A DNA stretch of 27,884 nt, taken from IMG/VR virus record IMGVR_UViG_3300037502_002007, positions 1 to 27,884 of that record, one strand, 5' to 3'. The notes below the pieces were generated by a model that made no database searches, had not been told where the DNA came from, and saw only the letters and a list, made by a program, of their open reading frames with translations. Numbering within the stretch: the first letter of the stretch is position 1; every line of letters begins with the position of its first letter. This document shows positions 3,201 through 27,884 of this stretch, in pieces. The DNA comes from a virus. The position numbers and the translations under genes are program-made.

Positions 3201-3667
3201 TAGCTAAATGCTTTCGCTATTGCATCACTAATGATGCGGTCTATAGTGCCATTATCTATCAGTCGCTGTGCAGCCTGCTCACCAGTGAGCCAGCGGCCTT
3301 GGTGTATGGTGGCTTGCTGATCGCCTATCACATATGGTGCATAGTGCGCTGTGCTCACCACCATCACACTATCAACACTCTCACGCATCACATACATGCT
3401 CTTGGTGAGGTTTTCACTGCCTGCAGCACGGCCGCCGCGCACGTATGGCACTTTGATTACGCCTTTGGATATCATTGCCATCACATACCTGCGTTGTTTT
3501 GCGCTCACAAACTTTTGTGCACCCTGCTGTGGCAGTGGTGGGATGTTATCGAGGATCTCACTGATAGCAAAGCCTGCCACTACCTCGAGCACATCCGTGG
3601 TGAGTGAGCGCATATCCTCGACTAGTCGTAGTGCTGCTGTATCTACCTCAATGCTATACGATGCCAT
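3200..3667 (-). CDS. HK97 gp10-like neck/tail-completion protein
   Basis: A 155-aa protein starting at ATG 3667 (MASYSIEVDTAALRLVEDM). AAGGA lies eight bases upstream, inside the end of the preceding gene, which it overlaps by 14 bases. A longer frame opens at 3691 without a good ribosome site. The segment STAHYAPYVIGDQQATIHQGRW (split here as STAHYAPYVIGDQ and HQGRW) matches the signature of HK97 gp10-like proteins, where a 'YA.yV..G' loop follows the central strands. Such proteins sit at the head-tail junction. Its place upstream of the capsid gene, not downstream of the connector, is less usual, so the exact joint role is uncertain. Confidence 0.55.
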   Translation of the reverse strand: MASYSIEVDTAALRLVEDMRSLTTDVLEVVAGFAISEILDNIPPLPQQGAQKFVSAKQRRYVMAMISKGVIKVPYVRGGRAAGSENLTKSMYVMRESVDSVMVVSTAHYAPYVIGDQQATIHQGRWLTGEQAAQRLIDNGTIDRIISDAIAKAFS

Positions 3668-6787: not shown

Positions 6788-7999
6788 CTATATAAAGTCG
6801 TATAGCGCACTACCTGCACCAAGCATCGCCACGGCACCGCTCACTGCATCCACCATATCATCATGTTCACCATGGGGGAACGCCGTGGCCTCGTCTACAA
6901 ACTGCCTCACCCATTCACCACCCACGATGCGCACCAGCCCACTCTCAGCGCGGGCCGCCCATGGCAGTGCGCGCTGCACCTTATCCTCACGTACTTTATA
7001 GCCCATTATGGCAATGTGTGCTAATTCAGGCAGACGCTGTAGCTCCTGCACCACAGCAAGCCCATGCATCGCCTCTTCTACCACTTGTGTAGTATCGTGA
7101 GCCTCTTCACGCATGATACTGATCATCACTCTGCGCACATCAGGCCACACGGCTTTCATCCGTATACCATCAGCAATGTACATGTGCTCATCATCAAATG
7201 CCACGCGTACACTGGCTGTATAGTCTGCAGCCTGCTTAACGGATGCAGCGAGATCCCAGTAGCGCACCCACTGCAGGCCACTTGGTGCAGCATGTACCAC
7301 ACGTAACCACTCACGCTGTATCATGCTGCCATCGGTATAGTAAAACTTGCCCTCAATTTCACGCTCACGCCACTCAGTGGTATAGCGTGCCTCGAGATCA
7401 TCCACAAAGCCTTCAGGCAGGTGAGGATTGCTGCGCGTGCTTGCAGTGATGAGCCCTGCAGTATCACGGCTGAACAAATCGTATACCCAATCCTGCCTAT
7501 CAGGATTCGGTGTGGTGGTGAGCCAGCCGCGTGCAGGCTGTTTGCGTAGACGGCCAATCATGATGCGCCACACATCCTGATGCATCTGCGCTGCCTCATC
7601 GAGCCAAAACCATCCGAGATTCGGCCCGCGCAGTTTATCAGGATCTTCAGCACTACGAAATAAAATCATGCTGCCATCAGTGAGCAGCCATTTTTTTTGG
7701 CTAAACACTTTGACGTGTTTATAGCCAATCTCCTTGAGTGCAGGGATGGTAGCATCTTCAAGCATGCGGTATGTCGGTGCTAACACCATCCCCACGCTAC
7801 GTGGTGGCATACGAAAGCACTCAGCAGCACCTGCATAGGTTTTGCCGCTGCCAATGCCACCCACAAACGCGCGGTATTTGGCGGCATTGCTCCAAAATGC
7901 TTGCTGTGGTGGTGTGCCTGTGAGTGCTTTCATGGCACTCTGTGCACTCTGCTGCTGGTGCAGCCTTAGCCTATTGTGTGCACCTCGGATTATACTCAC
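6788..7999 (-). CDS. terL: Terminase large subunit
   Basis: A 403-aa packaging motor. The ATPase part has Walker A GGIGSGKT (residues 47-54), Walker B ending in LDEAA (Asp134, Glu135) and a coupling motif TTTPN (161-165). The nuclease part has the RNase H-like acidic residues: Asp249 in RYWDLAAS, a likely Glu near 308-309, and HDDMVDA (Asp380/381, Asp384) near the end. The start is GTG overlapping the small-subunit TGA. The short length agrees with compact terminases of small siphoviruses. It docks on the portal encoded directly downstream. Headful or cos packaging cannot be decided from the protein alone. Confidence 0.97.
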   Translation of the reverse strand: MSIIRGAHNRLRLHQQQSAQSAMKALTGTPPQQAFWSNAAKYRAFVGGIGSGKTYAGAAECFRMPPRSVGMVLAPTYRMLEDATIPALKEIGYKHVKVFSQKKWLLTDGSMILFRSAEDPDKLRGPNLGWFWLDEAAQMHQDVWRIMIGRLRKQPARGWLTTTPNPDRQDWVYDLFSRDTAGLITASTRSNPHLPEGFVDDLEARYTTEWREREIEGKFYYTDGSMIQREWLRVVHAAPSGLQWVRYWDLAASVKQAADYTASVRVAFDDEHMYIADGIRMKAVWPDVRRVMISIMREEAHDTTQVVEEAMHGLAVVQELQRLPELAHIAIMGYKVREDKVQRALPWAARAESGLVRIVGGEWVRQFVDEATAFPHGEHDDMVDAVSGAVAMLGAGSALYDFI

Positions 8000-8484
8000 T
8001 CGAAATAATCTCCAGTCGCTTCCTGCTCGATGATGCGATCAAGCTCAAGCGCATGCGCACGCATGTCCATGCCGTATAAAATCGCCTTGGCTGCAGTGGC
8101 CAAATCGCTTGGCCTGTAATTCATCTTATGCATGCGCTGCACAATCTCACGCGCCATGATGCGGCCGTGGCTGATGAGCTCATCACCGATCACCATGGCT
8201 TTATCACGATGCTCTGATACCTGCATACGATACTGCGCAGTGCGCCGCTGCAGCTCAAGATTAAGCACCATCTCATCATATTGCCTTGCACACTCCACCC
8301 ATCCGTGATTCATTGACCATCTGCCAAACTGGCTCACATGCTTGCCAAGCTTTTCAGCCGTTTTTGCGATAGTGCGATTCACACCAAGCATCACATAGGT
8401 GACACGCGCCTCATAGGCTTGTGCTGATTCATTTTCATACTGTGGTAGCTCAATGTGTGGCGTTTGCTGCTGCTGTTCGCTCAT
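7996..8484 (-). CDS. terS: Terminase small subunit (putative)
   Basis: A 162-aa protein immediately upstream of terL with a GTGA junction. Residues about 35-70 contain a helix-turn-helix (VNRTIAKTAEKLGKHVSQF then GRWSMNHGW), the usual N-terminal DNA-recognition element of small terminases. The rest is helical and suits oligomerisation. GGAG lies seven bases before the ATG. The call rests on gene order, size and the HTH. Confidence 0.8.
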   Translation of the reverse strand: MSEQQQQTPHIELPQYENESAQAYEARVTYVMLGVNRTIAKTAEKLGKHVSQFGRWSMNHGWVECARQYDEMVLNLELQRRTAQYRMQVSEHRDKAMVIGDELISHGRIMAREIVQRMHKMNYRPSDLATAAKAILYGMDMRAHALELDRIIEQEATGDYFE

Positions 8485-11215: not shown

Positions 11216-12143
11216 TCAGATACTCCAGTAGTGCAGCCCACTTGGGATGCCAGCTATGTGCCTGCAGCCACTCTATAAACGGCTCACGTAGCCACACATT
11301 TGGCCGTATGCGCACTGGCTTTGGCAGTCCATTGTGCACATACGCATGGTGCAGGCTTCTGTACACACTCATATCATACTGCTCAATCACTGAGCCCACG
11401 ATGTATCTACTGCGCTGCAGATGCCTGATGTAATCTGCATACGGCCCGCGCGCACCTGCATACAGCAGGTAGCTATGGAGTGCGAGATACCTTGCCATCT
11501 GCTCACGATCATAGATACGGCCTGTCTCGATGCGTAGCACTGGCTTTGGCATGTGTCTCACTTGATACTCAGTGCAGCCTGCAATCTGCCTCAGCTCAGG
11601 TGTGGTGATATAGTCGCTCATTGCCTGCGCATAGATATCACGCACCCATGGTGCAGCCTGCGCGATGGTCTCATACAGCCTGAGCACATTCCCACGCTGC
11701 AGCCATGCAGTGGCCTCATCATGGTATATGTGGATGCGGCCTGTAGGTGCGTGCAGGTGTCCATCATGATGTGCCAGCATGTTGCGCAGCACCAGTGGAT
11801 CTATCGCGCAGTCTGCTGCAAACTGGTTCATGGTGTAGCCGATGCACTTCTCAGCACTGAGCCCTAAGTGACGGATGCGCCAACGCACTGCAGTGGCCGT
11901 GGTGCCAAGATGCTTAGCCATGGCTGTAGCACTCTTGTGGTAGGCATTGAACACCACATAATTGTCATCTTTTTGCGACCACTGTTTATTACGATAGCGC
12001 AGTCCATAGCGGCGCATCCAGTGGTATATGCTTGCCATGCTGACACCATGCGCTGCTGCGATTTGCTCAACGCGCTTACCAGCCTTGAGCTGCTTGGTTA
12101 GATACGCCTTATCCTGATACTGGTGCCCATATCGCTTACGCAT
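11187..12143 (-). CDS. Multi-helix-turn-helix DNA-binding protein
   Basis: A 318-aa basic protein made almost entirely of small HTH-like modules. Residues 13-47 contain VEQIAAAHGVSMASIYHWMR. Residues 56-97 are Myb/SANT-like (WSQKDDNYVV then TATAVRWRIRHLGL). Residues 103-149 and 179-221 each look like AlpA/MerR-type winged modules (MNQFAADCAIDPLVLRNML; TTPELRQIAGCTEYQVRHM). Residues 247-294 are a fifth possible unit. It starts at ATG 12143, overlapping the zinc-ribbon gene by eight bases. No nuclease or ATPase motif is seen. Being next to the iteron region, it is a candidate for the protein that reads those repeats, as initiator or regulator; that link is inferred. Confidence 0.75.
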   Translation of the reverse strand: MRKRYGHQYQDKAYLTKQLKAGKRVEQIAAAHGVSMASIYHWMRRYGLRYRNKQWSQKDDNYVVFNAYHKSATAMAKHLGTTATAVRWRIRHLGLSAEKCIGYTMNQFAADCAIDPLVLRNMLAHHDGHLHAPTGRIHIYHDEATAWLQRGNVLRLYETIAQAAPWVRDIYAQAMSDYITTPELRQIAGCTEYQVRHMPKPVLRIETGRIYDREQMARYLALHSYLLYAGARGPYADYIRHLQRSRYIVGSVIEQYDMSVYRSLHHAYVHNGLPKPVRIRPNVWLREPFIEWLQAHSWHPKWAALLEYLNGIYQESEA

Positions 12144-12561
12144 GTGTATCACCCTGCACAAGTTTTACGGTTTTAATATGCGTATATACACGCTTGAGAT
12201 CACGCTGGATGCGCATGCAGGTGCTTATGGCGTCGCCTTTCTGTATGGTGCGCTCAAGCATGCGCACAAGCTTATCACGCTCTTTTGCACGCTCAAGGCT
12301 TTTCTCATACGGCTCATACACTGGTGGCTGAGCCAGCTGCTGCTGTGCTATCCAAATGTTGGACCAACGATCCATATCCTCATCACTGAGTGCCTCGATG
12401 TGCGCCACGAGATCCTGCTGCAGCATGTCTGCACGAGCCGTGAGCCGTGAGAGTAGGCTCTCATCCTGCAGGCAGGTATTACACACGTTGACAAAGTTAC
12501 TGAATTGCGCCACGCTGAGCCACTGACTGCACGCTGCGCACTGTGATTGTGTCATTTTCAT
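12136..12561 (-). CDS. Zinc-ribbon protein next to iterons
   Basis: A 141-aa protein. The N-terminus carries CAAC and CNTC pairs separated by 17 residues, a zinc-ribbon pattern. The rest is helical and charged (YEKSLERAKERDKLVRMLER). The open frame extends upstream to 12729, but that part would translate the intergenic repeats. ATG 12561 has GAGGAG seven bases before it, so I choose it. It is the first gene after the iteron region and is followed with overlap by the multi-HTH gene. It may bind DNA or a replication protein; no specific function can be given. Confidence 0.75.
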   Translation of the reverse strand: MKMTQSQCAACSQWLSVAQFSNFVNVCNTCLQDESLLSRLTARADMLQQDLVAHIEALSDEDMDRWSNIWIAQQQLAQPPVYEPYEKSLERAKERDKLVRMLERTIQKGDAISTCMRIQRDLKRVYTHIKTVKLVQGDTHA

Positions 12562-12576
12562 CGCATTACTCCTCAC

Positions 12577-12818
12577 TGGTTGACAAATACACACAAGGTG
12601 GTTGACAAATACACACAAGGTGGTTGACAAATACACACAAGGTGGTTGACAAACTGGTATACATAGTGGTTGACGGTTGACAACATACGAGATTACTGCA
12701 TTAGAAAGCCTCAAACGCTTGTCAACCACCTAAAATAGCCCTGGTTGACAACGGTTGACAAATGTAACCCATGTAAACCATGTAAACCACTGTCAACCAT
12801 GTAAACCACTGTAAACCA
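12577..12818. repeat. Iteron-like array in two orientations
   Basis: The core is TGGTTGACA and its complement TGT(C/A)AACCA. Left side, plus orientation: three exact 22-bp tandem units start at 12577, 12599 and 12621 (TGGTTGACAAATACACACAA plus GG). Further cores are at 12643, 12667, 12674, 12742 and 12752. Right side, opposite orientation: 12720, 12763 (degenerate), 12772, 12781, 12791, 12800 and 12810. The last six are spaced 9-10 bp, one helical turn; the 22-bp units are about two turns. About 14-15 sites in all. Confidence 0.9.
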
Positions 12819-12832
12819 CCATAATACCTATA

Positions 12833-12848
12833 GAGATATAATTATCTC
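12833..12848. other. AT-rich hairpin after small gene
   Basis: GAGATA and TATCTC flank a TAAT loop, immediately after the TAA of the 69-aa gene (12853). The stem is only six pairs and no T-run follows on the minus strand. It is thus a poor terminator and may instead be part of the AT-rich melting segment next to the iterons. Confidence 0.35.
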
Positions 12849-12852
12849 TCTC

Positions 12853-13062
12853 TTACTGTGTTACTACTACCTCATAGATATCGTTATGTGCAGTAGTGGC
12901 GATATAGATCACTCCTGATGGCACATAACGTGCAAATGTGATGATAATCTTACCCTCATAGCCAGTATGGTCACGCACTGCAGCCTCACACGCTTTCGCG
13001 CGACCTGCTGCCATCACATCATAGGTAACGCCATCTACCTCTACTGTGTATCGAGCTGGCAT
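12853..13062 (-). CDS. Small unknown protein after primase-helicase
   Basis: A 69-aa protein starting at ATG 13062, with GGGAGG four to five bases upstream, and overlapping the end of the primase-helicase gene by 22 bases. It looks like a compact beta-alpha-beta fold: YTVEVDGVTYDVMAAGRAKA, a helix, then strands KIIITFARYV and VIYIATT. The early protein at 18712-18933 has a loosely similar strand-then-helix opening. No function is recognised. Confidence 0.65.
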   Translation of the reverse strand: MPARYTVEVDGVTYDVMAAGRAKACEAAVRDHTGYEGKIIITFARYVPSGVIYIATTAHNDIYEVVVTQ

Positions 13063-15014
13063 AATTCCTCCCATATCCTATCTGCCTGTGAGCCAATGCC
13101 ATAGACTGCACAAATCTGTGTAAACGTGGCAGAATCACCTGCGCGCCACTTCTCCTGCAGCTTTTGCTGCTGGATGAGTGGCAGTGTGTGGAGAAAGAGT
13201 GCAGGCTGATGCGTTGATGCCTGCACTGGCTCAGCAGGTGCATCATAGCCAGCAGGATAGCTACGCTCCTGTGGTGCGTAGTACTTGCCTACCTCATCCT
13301 GTGCAAGTGCACCAAGGCCACAAAGCTTCTGCAGCAGCTTGTGCACTGCCTGACGCGATTTGCCTGCCTCGTGTGCGATATCCTGCACACGCATGTGTGC
13401 ACTGCCAATGATTTTGAGGATAGCCATGCGCTCATCACTCATGTATGCCTGTGCAGGATCGCTCTCCAGCTCATGGCTGGATGTATGATCATTCCATTTG
13501 AGCACACGCTTATCATCATGCTCGATGTCACGGCCGCGCACCATTAGCTCGCTGTGTGTCTCTTTGGTAGGGATGCGTGAGAGAATGAGCATACCAGCCA
13601 CACCACCCACCAGCCCTGTTGTACCTGATATCTCATCAAATGCATCCTCACTCCTGCTCTTGCGTGTGTGGTGCACCATGAGAATACAGCAATGATGCTT
13701 TTCAGCCAGCTCATTGTATGGCTTGACTGCATCATAATCCTCAGTGTAGGGATTGCCATGCTTGGTGCGTGGCGCGCGGATGTTTTCGAGGATATCAATC
13801 ACCACAAGCGCACATTTATGCTCTGTGAGATAGATATCCAAATCTGCGACACCCAGCTCACCACGTTGCCATGTGTTCGTAATAAACATGTTGGCTGGCT
13901 GACCCTCATCATCACGCTCCATCTGCTGTAAGCGTGATTGCATGCGCCGCTGATTACTCTCGAGATCCATATAGAGCACTGAGCCCTGATGCGTGGCATA
14001 CTGGCCAAATACCTTGCCACCCATAGCCACAGTGCGTGCGATGTGCGTGGTGAGCCAGCTCTTGCGGCTCTTCGGCTTGCCTGCGAGCACAAAACAGCCC
14101 TCAGGCAGGATATCCTCTACGATCCACTTGAGTGCAGCAAATCGCTTTTTATCCAAATCTGCTGCACTGATGGTATTAAACGTGGTTTTATACTCTACCT
14201 CTTGTGATGGTGGCTTGAGCGTGAGCAGCTGCTGCATACTCTCATGCTGATAGAGCTTGCAGTAATCTGCGATATCACCACCAGCTCCAAGATTGAGATC
14301 CACGGCATACGCGGTATAGCCAGCTAACCGTAACTGGCTCACCAGCTTTTGGCTCGCTGTGCGGCCTTTTGCATCACAATCAAGTGCTACGATGATGGTA
14401 CCTGTGTAGAGTTGCTTGAGCTCATCCAGCAGGCTTGCTGGTATAGCATTCTCTCCACCACCTGCCACAGTGAGCGCAGGCACTCCATAGTGCATGGCTA
14501 CTACTGCACTACACTCACCATTGCAGTACACGAGTGGCTGACTGGTCGCGCGAGCCATGCGCACTGCCTCACTCATCAGATACCAACAGCGTGTGAAGCC
14601 TTTCTCATTGATGTACGTTTGCTCATCTCGATAATCTAAAAAGCGATAGCGCGGGCCGTGTGCGGTCTCAATCCTGAGCGCAGGCCGTCTCATATACTTT
14701 ATTTCACTCCATCCAGCCTGCTCGAGCACTTTCCACGCTACACCATGCTGTGCTGCATAGTCGCTACCACTCATGTAGCTGCGCTTGGATGTGGTCGAGC
14801 GTGTGTAGGTGATGCCAAGCGTATCAGCCAGCTGTGTGAGTGTGCCACTCTCACCACTCACATGATCATGGTAGGTGCCACCACGCTCATCAATCTTGAT
14901 GCTGAATGAATTGCTATCACTGCCTGTGCGTAGTGGTGAGTTGCATCGGTATTGCGATTTGCTCGCATCGTAGGCGATGCCTAAGTGCTGCAGGATTGCC
15001 TGTATGAGATTCAT
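13041..15014 (-). CDS. Primase-helicase (TOPRIM plus RepA-like ATPase)
   Basis: A 657-aa replication protein. Residues 1-75 resemble a degenerate primase N-terminal domain (YRCNSPLRTG, GGTYHDHVSGESG). Residues about 160-250 are a TOPRIM domain, with Glu167 in YCNGE and the DCD pair Asp212/Asp214 in VALDCDAKG. Residues about 295-500 are a RecA/RepA-type ATPase: Walker A AGKPKSRKS (311-319, Arg where Gly is usual), Walker B LVVID (Asp407), then MVHHTR (447-451) and SGTTG (463-467). Residues about 525-580 form a winged helix (MRVQDIAHEAGKSRQAVHKL). It should prime and unwind at the origin. The phage encodes no polymerase, so host polymerase is presumably recruited. The start overlaps the upstream gene by ATGA. 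Confidence 0.92.
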   Translation of the reverse strand: MNLIQAILQHLGIAYDASKSQYRCNSPLRTGSDSNSFSIKIDERGGTYHDHVSGESGTLTQLADTLGITYTRSTTSKRSYMSGSDYAAQHGVAWKVLEQAGWSEIKYMRRPALRIETAHGPRYRFLDYRDEQTYINEKGFTRCWYLMSEAVRMARATSQPLVYCNGECSAVVAMHYGVPALTVAGGGENAIPASLLDELKQLYTGTIIVALDCDAKGRTASQKLVSQLRLAGYTAYAVDLNLGAGGDIADYCKLYQHESMQQLLTLKPPSQEVEYKTTFNTISAADLDKKRFAALKWIVEDILPEGCFVLAGKPKSRKSWLTTHIARTVAMGGKVFGQYATHQGSVLYMDLESNQRRMQSRLQQMERDDEGQPANMFITNTWQRGELGVADLDIYLTEHKCALVVIDILENIRAPRTKHGNPYTEDYDAVKPYNELAEKHHCCILMVHHTRKSRSEDAFDEISGTTGLVGGVAGMLILSRIPTKETHSELMVRGRDIEHDDKRVLKWNDHTSSHELESDPAQAYMSDERMAILKIIGSAHMRVQDIAHEAGKSRQAVHKLLQKLCGLGALAQDEVGKYYAPQERSYPAGYDAPAEPVQASTHQPALFLHTLPLIQQQKLQEKWRAGDSATFTQICAVYGIGSQADRIWEELCQLDTQ

Positions 15015-16454: not shown

Positions 16455-17240
16455 CTAAAATGCGAGCTCCTCATCATCCTCATCAGCTGCTGCGCTTGCG
16501 CTGGCTGGTGCATCTGCGCTCTTGCGCTTTTGCTTGTGCCACTCAGCAGTCATATACTCATTGTAGATATCCGTGGCCTGTGCATAGAGCGCATCACCCA
16601 CATACAGCGCATCAATCTCCTGCTCTGTGGCCTGCTGTGCGATCCCTAACGTGATGTCATGCAGGTGCGTTTTTTGTGTGCCACTGCCTACCTCGACAAA
16701 TATCGGCTCATGCTTTTTGTCATAGGCTCCACCGATTGAGTGCCAAAATGCCCACGGCTGCAGTGTCATGCCAGCCAGCTTGCTTGCCACGCTGGTGACA
16801 TACTCATGCTGCTCTGCAAAGCATCCGCGCTTGTAGTGTGTGATGCGTGATGCAGCCCAGCCTTTGCCTGTCATCACAAGAGGCTGATTATAGCCCTCGA
16901 GCAAGCACAGCACCTCGGTGTACATCTTCATGCCTTGATTTGGTCGCCACTCGGTGTGCCATGTTGCCATGCCATCTACTACGCTAAATGGCTGCGAACG
17001 CTTGAGCAGTGGGATCATGTTGATGCGCACTGCCTCATAGCCATCCTCACCATACAGCGTGCTTGCTTTCCAGCCAGTAGGCAGGCTGTGAAAGCTCTCG
17101 CTCTTGGCATACCAGCAGCCTGCACTGCCATTGCGGCCCACTTTTAAGCCGTTATTCCAGCGAAAACGGCCAAGCCCATCACCCTCACCTGCTGCGCGCA
17201 CTACCTGCACCTGTGATGCAATCTTCTTCCAGTTACTCAT
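16455..17240 (-). CDS. Putative single-stranded DNA-binding protein
   Basis: A 261-aa protein. The body is mixed strand and aromatic-rich (GLGRFRWNNGLKVGRNGSAG, MYTEVLCLLEGYNQPLVMTG), compatible with an OB-type fold. The C-terminus is the best evidence: an Ala/Ser linker leading to DEDDEELAF, an acidic tail ending in an aromatic residue as in SSB proteins, where it docks partner enzymes. It is longer than bacterial SSB and shows no close match to it. Located upstream of the primase-helicase, it would coat exposed single strands. Overlaps the RHH gene by eight bases. Confidence 0.5.
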   Translation of the reverse strand: MSNWKKIASQVQVVRAAGEGDGLGRFRWNNGLKVGRNGSAGCWYAKSESFHSLPTGWKASTLYGEDGYEAVRINMIPLLKRSQPFSVVDGMATWHTEWRPNQGMKMYTEVLCLLEGYNQPLVMTGKGWAASRITHYKRGCFAEQHEYVTSVASKLAGMTLQPWAFWHSIGGAYDKKHEPIFVEVGSGTQKTHLHDITLGIAQQATEQEIDALYVGDALYAQATDIYNEYMTAEWHKQKRKSADAPASASAAADEDDEELAF

Positions 17241-17421
17241 GATTTGCTACTCCTGTCATCCTTGCAACATACTGCTCAACTGCCTGCACTACCAGCTCAC
17301 TTACTGCGACATTATCCCCACGACTATCACGCAACATGCGTGCGATCTGCTGCAGTGTGGCATACAGTGAGACTGGTATGCGCACACTCATCAATCTGCG
17401 TTTATTGTGCTTCTGCACCAC
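17233..17421 (-). CDS. Ribbon-helix-helix (CopG/Arc-like) DNA-binding protein
   Basis: A 62-aa protein with a basic N-terminus (KHNKRR), a strand LMSVRIPVSL and two helices (YATLQQIARMLRD and VAVSELVVQAVEQYVARM), the layout of ribbon-helix-helix dimers. The frame opens at 17442, but AAGGA stands six bases before GTG 17421, which I prefer. RHH proteins bind short palindromic operators as dimers, often repressing their own operon. The early operator at 18962-19000 is the obvious candidate target. This is inferred, not shown. Confidence 0.7.
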   Translation of the reverse strand: MVQKHNKRRLMSVRIPVSLYATLQQIARMLRDSRGDNVAVSELVVQAVEQYVARMTGVANHE

Positions 17422-17644
17422 TGGTAATCCTTTCTGCTGCACTTACTAATGCCTTGCCATGCGCAATGGTGCGCTCTGCCTTGGTGATGCGCTCACACAG
17501 CTCATAGTACTGATCCGTGTTCACTGCCTCTACGCCTATGGATTTGATGATTGCGCGGATGGTATCGCGTAGGATGATATCATCTTCGAGCTGGCTCTCT
17601 GCCTGTGCGATTGCATCACGCACATCTTGAATGGTTTTAGGCAT
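17402..17644 (-). CDS. Small helical unknown protein
   Basis: An 80-aa protein starting at ATG 17644 (MPKTIQDVRDAIAQAESQLE), with GAGGA upstream inside the preceding gene. The frame opens earlier at 17680, but that part lacks a ribosome site. It is almost wholly helical, with probable coiled-coil segments. No motif recognised. Confidence 0.6.
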   Translation of the reverse strand: MPKTIQDVRDAIAQAESQLEDDIILRDTIRAIIKSIGVEAVNTDQYYELCERITKAERTIAHGKALVSAAERITSGAEAQ

Positions 17645-18221: not shown

Positions 18222-18483
18222 GGTTAGCTCCATTCATTGCCTCTACCACTTTGCCTGAGAGCTGTGTCATCTTGTGCGCTACCTGCGCGCGCACTGCATC
18301 CATGGCTGCATCGAGTGTCTCATACTGAGGCCGCTCGAAACGCCACAGAATCAAGCCTGTGCGATTGCTATCAACAAACTTCACCATTCCATGCCATGGC
18401 TGCTCCTCAATGCGCTCAATGTCAATCACCAGCTGCAGTGTGTCGCTCAGCTTGTGCACTTCTGTGTGTGTGGTGCGATTCAT
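18214..18483 (-). CDS. Small early protein, 89 aa
   Basis: The ATG overlaps the previous TAA (TAATG). Strand-rich first half (LQLVIDIERIEEQPWHGMV, GLILWRFERPQYE), then a helix (TLDAAMDAVRAQVAHKM). Not recognised. Part of the early operon. Confidence 0.65.
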   Translation of the reverse strand: MNRTTHTEVHKLSDTLQLVIDIERIEEQPWHGMVKFVDSNRTGLILWRFERPQYETLDAAMDAVRAQVAHKMTQLSGKVVEAMNGANHA

Positions 18484-18701
18484 TACTTACCTGCCTTGTA
18501 CATCTGTGTCAAGCGGTTGACGTTGCGCATGTAGTGCTTGACGGTGGCGCGCAAACGGTCTGCCTGTGGATTGACTGAGCCATGCACATCAACGTGTGTG
18601 ATGAGCTTGTCAATGTGCTTGAGCATCTGCTGATAGGCAAACCGCTTAGCCTCAAGCGTTGCATCATAGTGCTCTGTGCCATCCGTGTAGATGTGTGCCA
18701 T
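18483..18701 (-). CDS. Small early protein, 72 aa
   Basis: ATG 18701 has GGAG seven bases upstream. Helical and basic (LEAKRFAYQQMLKHIDKLI, ADRLRATVKHYMRNVNRL). No motif recognised. Second gene after the early promoter; such first-expressed small proteins often act on the host, but nothing here shows how. Confidence 0.65.
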   Translation of the reverse strand: MAHIYTDGTEHYDATLEAKRFAYQQMLKHIDKLITHVDVHGSVNPQADRLRATVKHYMRNVNRLTQMYKAGK

Positions 18702-18711
18702 GTGTGTACTC

Positions 18712-18933
18712 CTACTCTGCTACGACTGATACGCGGTCGATGATCATGGTGCCGTACCGTGTGTGCTTGAGCACCTGAGCCGTCTGTGTGTGCACATCGT
18801 ATGCGATGCCGAGGCTCTTGGTGCTGGCGCGCTTACCGATGGCCTTGAGCACTGCGCTGCGCATATCGACTGCCTGCACATACCCACAGAAACTGCCACC
18901 GATGACCTTGACCCAGAATGTTTGCTTGCTCAT
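18712..18933 (-). CDS. First early gene, 73-aa unknown protein
   Basis: The first gene downstream of the early promoter/operator. ATG 18933 has GAGGAG seven bases upstream. Strands (TFWVKVIGGSFCGYVQAVD), a helix (MRSAVLKAIGKRAS) and more strands (GIAYDV, AQVLKHTRYGTMIIDRV) suggest a small mixed fold. Not recognised. Confidence 0.7.
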   Translation of the reverse strand: MSKQTFWVKVIGGSFCGYVQAVDMRSAVLKAIGKRASTKSLGIAYDVHTQTAQVLKHTRYGTMIIDRVSVVAE

Positions 18934-18961
18934 CTCTCTACTCCTCTGTGCTACTAGTGAT

Positions 18962-19000
18962 GTAATACTGTATTACTGTATTACACACGTATAGTAATAC
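18962..19000. promoter_or_regulatory. Palindromic operator at early promoter
   Basis: Four copies of the half-site GTATTAC/GTAATAC occur: 18962-18968, 18970-18976, 18978-18984 and 18994-19000. The first two form a perfect 15-bp palindrome, GTAATACTGTATTAC. The third and fourth form a wider inverted pair across the expected transcription start, and the fourth overlaps the -10 box. This is a typical repressor-site arrangement. Confidence 0.75.
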
Positions 19001-19019
19001 AGGTTATTCCATTTGTCAA
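18991..19019 (-). promoter_or_regulatory. Early sigma70-type promoter
   Basis: On the minus strand, TTGACA (19019-19014) is a perfect -35 box, followed after exactly 17 bases by TACTAT (18996-18991), four of six to the -10 consensus. Transcription would start near 18984, about 50 bases before the first early gene. The promoter lies just after the late terminator. Confidence 0.8.
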
Positions 19020-19055
19020 GAGGGAAATTACCTGATATTTACATGATTTGTGCAT

Positions 19056-19106
19056 GATAAAACACTCACGCGCTCATGAGTGTCCCCATCATGAGCGCGT
19101 GAGTGT
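19056..19106 (-). terminator. Rho-independent terminator of late operon
   Basis: A perfect 18-bp stem (arms 19062-19079 and 19089-19106, ACTCACGCGCTCATGA core) with a 9-base loop lies 32 bases after the last tail gene. On the minus strand the stem ends in TTTT followed by ATCATG, a short T-run. The stem strength makes termination likely. No T-run exists in the plus direction. Confidence 0.85.
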
Positions 19107-19137
19107 ATGTTGCACCGAACCACTAGCAGCACTGTGA

Positions 19138-25720: not shown

Positions 25721-26317
25721 CTATGATCTCCTGCGATATGGATCCAGCGTAACGGCCACATCCGTTGGCACTCGTGCAGCCTGCAATACAAATCCATCAG
25801 GCGAGATGATACTGCGATCCGTATCAGGTGTACCCTCACGCTGTCTGTAGATGTATGCTGCAAGCCTGATAGTTGCTGCCACAATGTCAGCAGGTGCAGT
25901 AATGCTATACGCAAACCGCCCCACCACACTGATAGCAGTATCAGGCTCACCTACATATGTCCACACATAGCTTGTGTTGCTCTTGATTTTGATGGCATAC
26001 TTTGGTGTGTAATTTGTTGGCAATAGCACAAGTGATGCAGTAGGGATTACCTGCGCATTGCCATTAGTGACACTCGTAAGCTGACACAAATCAGTATCGA
26101 GCATCAGCGTTTGCGTAAACGCGTCAATACTGCCACCATAGCGGATATCAAGCGCATTGTAATAGCGCGTGGTATCTGCTGCAGCCTCAAATGTGCGATT
26201 ACAATAGGCATCTACCATATGCTGCGCACGCGTGGCTGCATAGCCAAGCTGTGTATCATCAGTATGCGATGATGCGCCAATGTAATCACGCAATTCTGCT
26301 GCAGTTATGTATGCCAC
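25721..26317 (-). CDS. Head-tail connector (HK97 gp6-like)
   Basis: A 198-aa adaptor protein. The N-terminal helices (YITAAELRDYIGASSHTDDT, GYAATRAQHMVDAYCNRTFE) followed by a strand-rich insertion (TSYVWTYVGEPDTAISVVGR) and a C-terminal helix (PADIVAATIRLAAYIYRQRE) match the gp6/gp15-like connector fold that forms a ring under the portal. It ends in DPYRRRS. The start is GTG with GAGG six bases upstream. The first 64 bases recur at the left end of the window. Confidence 0.88.
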   Translation of the reverse strand: MAYITAAELRDYIGASSHTDDTQLGYAATRAQHMVDAYCNRTFEAAADTTRYYNALDIRYGGSIDAFTQTLMLDTDLCQLTSVTNGNAQVIPTASLVLLPTNYTPKYAIKIKSNTSYVWTYVGEPDTAISVVGRFAYSITAPADIVAATIRLAAYIYRQREGTPDTDRSIISPDGFVLQAARVPTDVAVTLDPYRRRS

Positions 26318-26541
26318 TATGAGCCTCGCTTTTTGCGTGATGGTGCAGGCTGGACTGGTGCGCTCTCTGTGCTCACTGGTGGTGCCTCAGGCTCCACACG
26401 CTCTGCACGCCGCCGAAATACCATGTGCTCAGCCTCCTTGCTGGTGACGCTTATCACGTCACCAGCATTGTAGGCCTTGAGCCTGTTATTCTCTGCGCGC
26501 ACCAAACCGAGCAGTAGTTTTACAAGCACCAAATCACTCAT
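26317..26541 (-). CDS. Small capsid-module protein (copy 2)
   Basis: The second copy of the 74-aa gene at 64-288, differing at two residues in the Pro-rich tail (APVQPAPS instead of APAKPAPS). Here it leads directly into the complete connector gene, so this is the copy in its full genomic context. Confidence 0.75.
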   Translation of the reverse strand: MSDLVLVKLLLGLVRAENNRLKAYNAGDVISVTSKEAEHMVFRRRAERVEPEAPPVSTESAPVQPAPSRKKRGS

Positions 26542-27884
26542 TACGGATTGACCCCATAGACAAAGGCCTCAGCTTGCGTTACATCGCCACCCCATCGCAC
26601 CGTGGTAAAGATGCCAGTCTGGTAGTTGGCTTGGTAGAGGTATGGATTGCGGCTGATTTCGAGGCCCATGTTTTCAACAAACGCGTAGTACAGCATGTTG
26701 CCAAAGATGATGGGCTTGTTGGTGGTACCCAGTGCAGCGATGTTGTCAGTGAGTGCCACGTTTTTACCGTAGAGGCTCTCCATGCTGCCTGATGGTGTCG
26801 GCGCAAAGCTGAAGAAATTACCTTGCAGTGCACGAATGGCACCGAGTGTGCTATTGCGCATAATCCAGCCTACGCTGTTGCTGTCATCGGCATACCATGC
26901 AGGCAATTTGTGCGCGATGTTGACGATGTCCGCAGCATCAACGGCCGCAGCACCTGCAAGCGTTTCACTTACTGTGGCGCGTGCCAAGATGCCATACGGC
27001 TGGCTGGAGCCAGTGCCACTAATCATATAATTGTTCAGGTGGCGTGCATAGGCTCGACCAATCTCACGCGCCAGAAAGCCCTGCAGATCCATCGCCTCGT
27101 CACGCAACAGCTGATTGCTCACCTTCATAGCCAGTGATGCCGTATAGATGGTAATCGCACTGCTGGCAAACGTAGGCTCATCAAAGTTTGCTGCACTAGC
27201 CTCAGCGACAAATGCAAAATCACTCTTGCTGTCCTGATCGGCGATGTTGAAGATATCGCGGCTGGTGGTGTATCGCTGTACAGGCAGCTTTGCGCCAATC
27301 CATGTCTCATCACGCTTGTCTACAATTTGCGTGGCGTAATCCTCAGGCACCAAAAAGCCACCTTGTGAGCCTGTGCCCTCATTCATAGCAGCCTTGAGTG
27401 ATTGACGTGCGCCAATCTCGTCACCCGTCTTGAGCCAGTGCATGAGTGCTTGCATGGGCTCATTGCTAAAGCCCTTGGTGGTAAGCTTCTTCGTTGCAGG
27501 TGCTTCAGGTGCAGCGATTACGCCACCACCCTGCACAGGCTCTCCAGCGATTTCCACCAGAGCCGCTTTTAACTCTTCACGATCCATAGTCGTAGTGTCT
27601 CCTACTGTGTGTGTGTGTTTGATATCTGCTGATGTGCTTGCAGGTGCGCTGTTACCAGCCTGTGCATCTGCCTCTGCCATCTGAGCATACGTATATGTTT
27701 TGGGCTCTGCTGGTGTCGGTGTGAGTGATATCTCTCCAATAATCCAGCGTTTAATTGTCGAGCCCTCACGCTCCACTAGGTGCGAGAGCGCACCTGTGCT
27801 GAGCCCAAGTGCACCCTTTTTCACCAGCTCCATCACCTGCTGCACATACTTGTGCCTGCGATCGAGCTCTATCTCTACATCAAT
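26541..27884 (-). CDS. Protease-capsid fusion, 5'-truncated by window edge (copy 2)
   Basis: The right-hand copy of the 529-aa protease-capsid gene, lacking about the first 82 residues because the window ends. The Ser of the protease motif GALGLSTGAL, the internal start at 27587 with its AGGAGA, and the entire capsid domain are present. It differs from copy 1 at only three residues despite many synonymous changes, so both copies look functional. Confidence 0.93.
   Translation of the reverse strand: MDVEIELDRRHKYVQQVMELVKKGALGLSTGALSHLVEREGSTIKRWIIGEISLTPTPAEPKTYTYAQMAEADAQAGNSAPASTSADIKHTHTVGDTTTMDREELKAALVEIAGEPVQGGGVIAAPEAPATKKLTTKGFSNEPMQALMHWLKTGDEIGARQSLKAAMNEGTGSQGGFLVPEDYATQIVDKRDETWIGAKLPVQRYTTSRDIFNIADQDSKSDFAFVAEASAANFDEPTFASSAITIYTASLAMKVSNQLLRDEAMDLQGFLAREIGRAYARHLNNYMISGTGSSQPYGILARATVSETLAGAAAVDAADIVNIAHKLPAWYADDSNSVGWIMRNSTLGAIRALQGNFFSFAPTPSGSMESLYGKNVALTDNIAALGTTNKPIIFGNMLYYAFVENMGLEISRNPYLYQANYQTGIFTTVRWGGDVTQAEAFVYGVNP

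Follow-up and report, generated by a model that had tools for sequence, protein, structure and literature searches.

A conserved array of short repeats at the 3' end of a phage primase-helicase gene is a candidate replication origin

The window analyzed here is the whole of an IMG/VR record (IMGVR_UViG_3300037502_002007; 27,884 bp), whose two ends share 1,631 bp of overlapping sequence (96% identical), giving a unit of about 26.25 kb. The overlapping ends (1-1631 and 26254-27884) carry two versions of the major capsid gene and probably reflect a circularly permuted genome assembled from mixed strains. All called genes are located on the minus strand and include the phage's own terminase, portal, capsid and tail proteins, and the carrier is a small, siphovirus-like, complete tailed phage of roughly 26 kb. 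A nucleotide search with the whole window gave no match among phage records, a search with the helicase described below found no relative in genome contigs, and scans for Rfam families and tRNAs found none.

Between a 73-aa ORF and a zinc-ribbon gene starting at 12561 lies a gap of 291 bp (12562-12852) that is the largest, as originally described, or nearly the largest between called genes, and that is occupied by an array of 9-bp repeats. A protein search yielded one sibling of the phage, 94% identical in DNA (L146), and an alignment-based search yielded 80 loci. Clade A (L146-L155) comprises the sibling and nine loci with helicases 53-57% identical, clade B consists of L159-L167 (helicases 36-38% identical) and clade C of L156 and L157. 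The features of the region are the following:

12136-12561, minus strand: gene of a 141-aa zinc-ribbon protein, with its start 15 bp past the array; L148-L155 likewise have a zinc-ribbon ORF after the array.
12577-12651, plus strand: four extra sites at 22-bp spacing, present only in the window phage and its 94% sibling.
12667-12682, plus strand: core module 4, a terminal opposed pair of sites overlapping by 2 bp (7-bp step); an equivalent pair (7-9-bp step) occurs in clades A, B and C.
12683-12719, minus strand: unique spacer with the conserved words GTTTGAGGC (12708-12716, as GCCTCAAAC) and GCAGTAATCT (12690-12699, as AGATTACTGC).
12720-12728, minus strand: core module 3, a single site oriented as the six tandem sites; relatives have one or two sites.
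12742-12760, plus strand: core module 2, two opposed sites (12742, 12752), separated by 2 bp from the tandem six and shared by all clade A relatives.
12763-12818, minus strand: core module 1, six tandem 9-bp sites TGGTTKACA (12810, 12800, 12791, 12781, 12772, 12763), with a gene-strand spacing of 10, 9, 10, 9 and 9 bp that is the same or nearly the same in L147-L155.
12819-12870, no strand: AT-rich stretch with a palindrome; sequence and position not conserved in relatives.
12853-13074, minus strand: the 73-aa ORF between helicase and array; a homologue lies elsewhere in three relatives.
13041-15014, minus strand: gene of a 657-aa TOPRIM and RepA-like (AAA_25) primase-helicase with a C-terminal winged helix, the proposed initiator.
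13269-13436, minus strand: the winged helix (codons 527-582), proposed reader of the sites; GKSRQ..HK is invariant in clade A.

Two further minus-strand reading frames lie beyond the helicase. A 261-aa protein near the primase-helicase (16455-17240) is 43% conserved in three relatives, has no family match, and may be a replication or recombination partner. A short ORF (17233-17442), judged by eye, resembles a ribbon-helix-helix DNA-binding protein and is a possible regulator.

The array spans 12577-12818 (242 bp) and comprises one weaker site and 14 that deviate from TGGTTGACA at no more than one position, in agreement with the roughly 14 copies predicted. On the plus strand, sites at 12577, 12599, 12621 and 12643 follow one another in 22-bp steps and in one orientation, as had been described for the left side, and further sites are found at 12667, 12674, 12742 and 12752. 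Minus-strand sites with at most one mismatch are located at 12720, 12772, 12781, 12791, 12800 and 12810. The fifteenth site, at 12763, reads TGGGTTACA with two mismatches, matches TGGTTTACA perfectly in the 94% relative, and completes six minus-strand sites with steps of 9, 9, 10, 9 and 10 bp; the six oppositely oriented sites expected on the right at 9-10 bp are thereby accounted for, and the described shift of the core between TGTCAACCA and TGTAAACCA is seen as well. No exact TGGTTKACA occurs outside the array in the 27.9-kb record, and a shuffled 27.9-kb sequence contains about eight one-mismatch sites over its whole length, compared to 14 within 242 bp here. An assignment to mycobacteriophage stoperators, which are asymmetric sites scattered genome-wide, was rejected, as all exact sites lie within the 242 bp.

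Other parts of the original prediction hold less fully. The sites had been divided into two classes, and their cores do differ by one base (G/T), but the two types mix freely, so that one binding protein is more likely. The proposed bipartite layout is visible as two halves in the window phage, although the 22-bp half is confined to this phage and its sibling; what relatives retain as the conserved module is the 9-10-bp part together with the opposed sites. Helical phasing applies roughly to the four 22-bp units, but neither to the 9-10-bp array (R=0.47 against 10.5 bp, best period 9.4) nor to all sites together (R=0.23, p=0.46). The sites of the 9-10-bp array drift by about 38 degrees per site, so that five steps cover 4.5 turns, which refutes their placement on one DNA face.

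The AT-rich stretch that was said to follow the array does so, and stability in the 26.25-kb unit is lowest there for segments of 50 bp as well as 200 bp (centres 12844 and 12859); the lack of conservation of this stretch in relatives counts against an origin. A DNA folding calculation for the gap gave z=-3.7, which is expected from the inverted sites, and no hairpin role is therefore claimed. Nucleotide searches with the array in phage and plasmid records gave short chance matches or none.

In keeping with the predicted origin, the repeats recur as an array at the helicase 3' end in all close relatives. All ten members of clade A share one order, namely six direct sites, two opposed sites, one or two direct sites, about 37 bp of unique sequence and two opposed sites. 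The six-site spacing is 10, 9, 10, 9, 9 in the window, the sibling and most relatives, the exceptions being L147 (10, 9, 10, 9, 10) and L148 (9, 9, 10, 9, 9). In L147-L155 the array starts within about 10 bp of the helicase stop; in the sibling, as in the window, the 73-aa ORF lies in between. Three relatives represented by near-complete sequences (26.5-28.9 kb) are for the most part collinear with the window. Compared to the sibling, the window differs at 1 of 133 positions in the sites and at 8 of 157 in the rest of the gap. Six of these eight form one concerted pair of changes, the same two bases being altered in each of three spacers of the 22-bp units, as expected for a recently amplified tandem. 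An independent array-pattern search returned five records, four of which encode helicase relatives or are the sibling (contigs of L143/L152, L144/L147, L145/L154 and L086). No repeat cluster was found in the terminase-based relatives L138-L142, most of which are fragments ending short of the helicase.

The clustering of the repeats and record ends that look circularly permuted would also suit a partition (parS-like) or packaging (pac) site. This is highly improbable, as there is no ParA/ParB match among the scanned proteins, the terminase genes are located 4 kb off (7996-8484 and 6788-7999) and the array tracks the helicase gene. A parS/centromere identity was likewise rejected, with no linked ParA/ParB match.

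In clade B, six tandem sites, opposed sites and a terminal pair are again present, but with another sequence (GTTCACTCT, GGTAACTCT, GGTTACTCT and similar) and within the helicase ORF, in the helicase frame, with the winged helix encoded on one side of the array and a C-terminal domain on the other. Each of the first six 9-bp units amounts to three codons, some of the units being degenerate, and the same 9-mer occurs on both strands and in two codon frames (AAG AGT GAA and AGA GTG AAC). The use of two frames and both strands implies that a DNA word is kept rather than a peptide, and selection on the clade B array thus appears to act on DNA. In L159-L167 the 3' part of the helicase gene is an example of an origin-like array overprinted on coding sequence, yielding serine-rich linkers between two domains. 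Furthermore, GTTTGAGGC is found at the equivalent place in the window and most clade B members and is coding (FEA) in clade B only; this recurrence was noticed post hoc, has a chance probability of about 0.001 and is weak alone. In clade C, ATGGCACA repeats lie about 500 bp after the helicase stop, with runs of six, five and two sites in L156.

The position of the window array immediately upstream of 12561, with the sibling-specific 22-bp sites extending to 15 bp before the start codon, is what an operator array would show. In that case, a phage HTH, zinc-ribbon or ribbon-helix-helix protein or the winged helix of the helicase would switch the operon from 12561, with no role in replication. 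Scans for promoters and terminators found nothing above chance, the one sigma-70-like promoter detected being no more than in shuffles; the clade B array lies within the helicase ORF rather than in a promoter position, and linkage to the helicase 3' end extends across many genomes. A purely regulatory array is accordingly quite improbable, whereas a regulatory role as such is possible, since the clade A array is also located upstream of the next operon.

We consider it probable, on comparative sequence grounds, that the array is the replication origin of the phage and is bound by the phage's own primase-helicase through its winged helix. When the helicase profile is compared with solved structures, the motor matches the hexameric RepA of RSF1010 (1g8y, E=1.4e-10) and the C-terminal part matches winged-helix regulators. 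An AlphaFold2 model built from 44 sequences has a mean pLDDT of 86.9 and a pTM of 0.49, so that the domains are confident and their arrangement is not; the top Foldseek matches of the model are T7 gp4 and Twinkle. PADLOC and NCBIfam gave weak winged-helix and primase matches and nothing more, and the helicase has no Pfam match to DUF927 or D5/Primase_Cterm.

A separate initiator, be it a zinc-ribbon or an HTH protein of the phage or host DnaA, could instead recognize the origin and recruit the primase-helicase, in the way RepC does for RepA in RSF1010. RSF1010 RepA needs RepC (PMC8965321), and in clade A a zinc-ribbon ORF comes after the array. However, the repeat sequence is wholly different between related phages, unlike a host DnaA box. 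Moreover, the winged helix of the helicase is the sole sequence-specific candidate family-wide and co-varies with the repeats, which makes recognition by another protein unlikely.

The same arrangement, with different repeat sequences, is present beside related helicases in dozens of viral genomes. When 57 non-redundant AAA_25 helicase loci were scanned for their densest repeat cluster, 50 had at least six sites, and 36 of these 50 clusters lie at the helicase 3' end (cluster centre between 60 bp upstream and 800 bp downstream of the end of the helicase match) against 5.5 expected by position. Several of the 14 clusters elsewhere are GC-rich words typical of coding DNA, and L156 was counted outside the 3'-end window despite its array adjoining the gene. 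This non-redundant count supersedes an earlier single-word scan, in which all clusters were downstream of the helicase match. Repeat similarity follows winged-helix similarity with the motor controlled for (partial Mantel r=0.27, p=0.0002; reverse test r=0.15, p=0.004), a modest effect in which phylogeny is only partly controlled. Formal testing of the general claim is limited to the position count and the partial Mantel test, and the cluster threshold was chosen by us; many tests were run after the pattern had been seen, and the work is comparative sequence analysis throughout.

Beyond clades A-C the layouts vary, with opposed triplets being common, or mixed runs; six tandem sites are found only in clades A-C and in L205/L215, the run in L205 being interrupted. 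Gut records L131-L133 have similar arrays after the helicase, and in the cultured mycobacteriophage FF47 (L228) seven ATGTCCGG-like sites at 3294-3502 extend across the 3' end of the gene annotated as RepA helicase. No arrays were found in Emalyn and Lactococcus phage 936, and Curtobacterium phages Shrew and HerculesXL have clusters upstream of the helicase only. L181 and L196 are contigs of about 11 kb that carry helicase, repeat array, HNH endonuclease and TerL in this order, a gene order suggesting that some members of the wider family may be PICI-like; such members may already have been noted by others, the literature search being a non-exhaustive one of open-access full text.

The strongest fact against the origin reading comes from GC skew. 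A skew switch near the array had been anticipated, but there is none; the minimum is located at 18430, about 6 kb from the array, and recurs at the same gene boundary (early/tail) in three relatives. All called genes are on one strand, and skew may say little here. The region at about 18430-19137, with the skew minimum and an AT-rich gap at the early/tail boundary, could be an alternative origin, a terminus or a promoter region.

SaPI Rep and SCCmec Cch2 are proposed self-loading helicases of which the C-terminal domain reads iterons directly downstream of the gene (PMC7581432), and PICI origins consist of two iteron sets flanking an AT-rich region immediately 3' of rep (PMC6092414). The array resembles these rep-ori units in its place at the 3' end of the initiator helicase gene, with the 73-aa ORF intervening in the window, and in its two sets of short iterons, here in opposed orientation. 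A C-terminal helicase domain acting as iteron reader is a proposed further likeness, to which the co-variation with the repeats points. In contrast to SaPI/PICI origins, no AT-rich region separates the iteron sets, the largest within-array gap having 41-52% GC in clade A, and the AT-rich stretch of the window lies outside the array. SaPI/PICI helicases belong to the DUF927 or D5/Primase_Cterm lineages, whereas an AAA_25 RepA/DnaB-like motor is fused to TOPRIM here, and they are carried by satellite islands, in contrast to the window phage, which is complete and has its own terminase, portal, capsid and tail genes. Because of the other motor lineage, the phage carrier and the missing AT-rich element, the window phage is not filed as a SaPI/PICI member.

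O and Rep2009 are non-helicases and need partners. Repeats lie inside the initiator gene in the origins of lactococcal phages TP901-1 and Tuc2009 (PMC8965321) and of lambda (PMC11447400). The clade B array shares this location, and the window phage shares an AT-rich stretch beside the iterons; unlike lambda O-type origins, the window array lies outside the helicase gene, and no window protein has a PHROGs or Pfam match to an O-family initiator. With RepA of RSF1010 (IncQ) the helicase has in common a homologous motor domain of the hexameric-helicase family, the hexamer here being presumed, but RSF1010 has separate RepC and RepB whereas primase, motor and DNA-binding domain are in one chain here, and no RepC-like match was found among the scanned window proteins. 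Phage P4 alpha unites primase, helicase and origin binding in one protein and uses short iterons, a combination that the window helicase, with its proposed origin binding, would share. P4 itself is a satellite and has its cis sites in two separate places (ori/crr), unlike the single cluster in the window record.

Given the observed sites, their conserved order and approximate spacing, their linkage to the helicase family and their co-variation with the winged helix, initiation at the proposed origin may be pictured as follows. The phage primase-helicase, a TOPRIM primase with a RepA/DnaB-type motor that is presumably hexameric, would bind the 9-bp sites through the winged helix that follows the motor. 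The six tandem sites and the opposed sites would gather helicase subunits in two orientations, the six sites possibly corresponding to six subunits. The DNA would then be opened near the array, and helicase rings would be loaded for two forks, so that replication would be bidirectional; the first primers would come from the primase domain. The four 22-bp repeats would have arisen by recent amplification at this locus, and may modulate copy number or the expression of the next operon.

As a rule, replicative helicases of the DnaB/T7 gp4 type depend on separate initiators or loaders to be put onto DNA. Tentatively, and at somewhat less than even chance, the loci compared here may represent a class of replicons, widespread in phages and satellites, whose SF4 (DnaB/RepA-superfamily) primase-helicase recognizes its own origin via an integral winged helix and is self-loading, with no separate loader. 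In clades A-C six tandem sites would then serve one hexamer, and a PICI-like origin would have evolved independently around an unrelated motor, being encoded in one clade within the helicase gene itself. The comparison suggests that the SaPI/PICI-like plan is common elsewhere with an unrelated helicase. If this helicase family does find and load itself, small origin-plus-helicase modules would be minimal, testable replicons, and the linked repeats would offer a sequence-only route to origins in uncultured phages and satellites.
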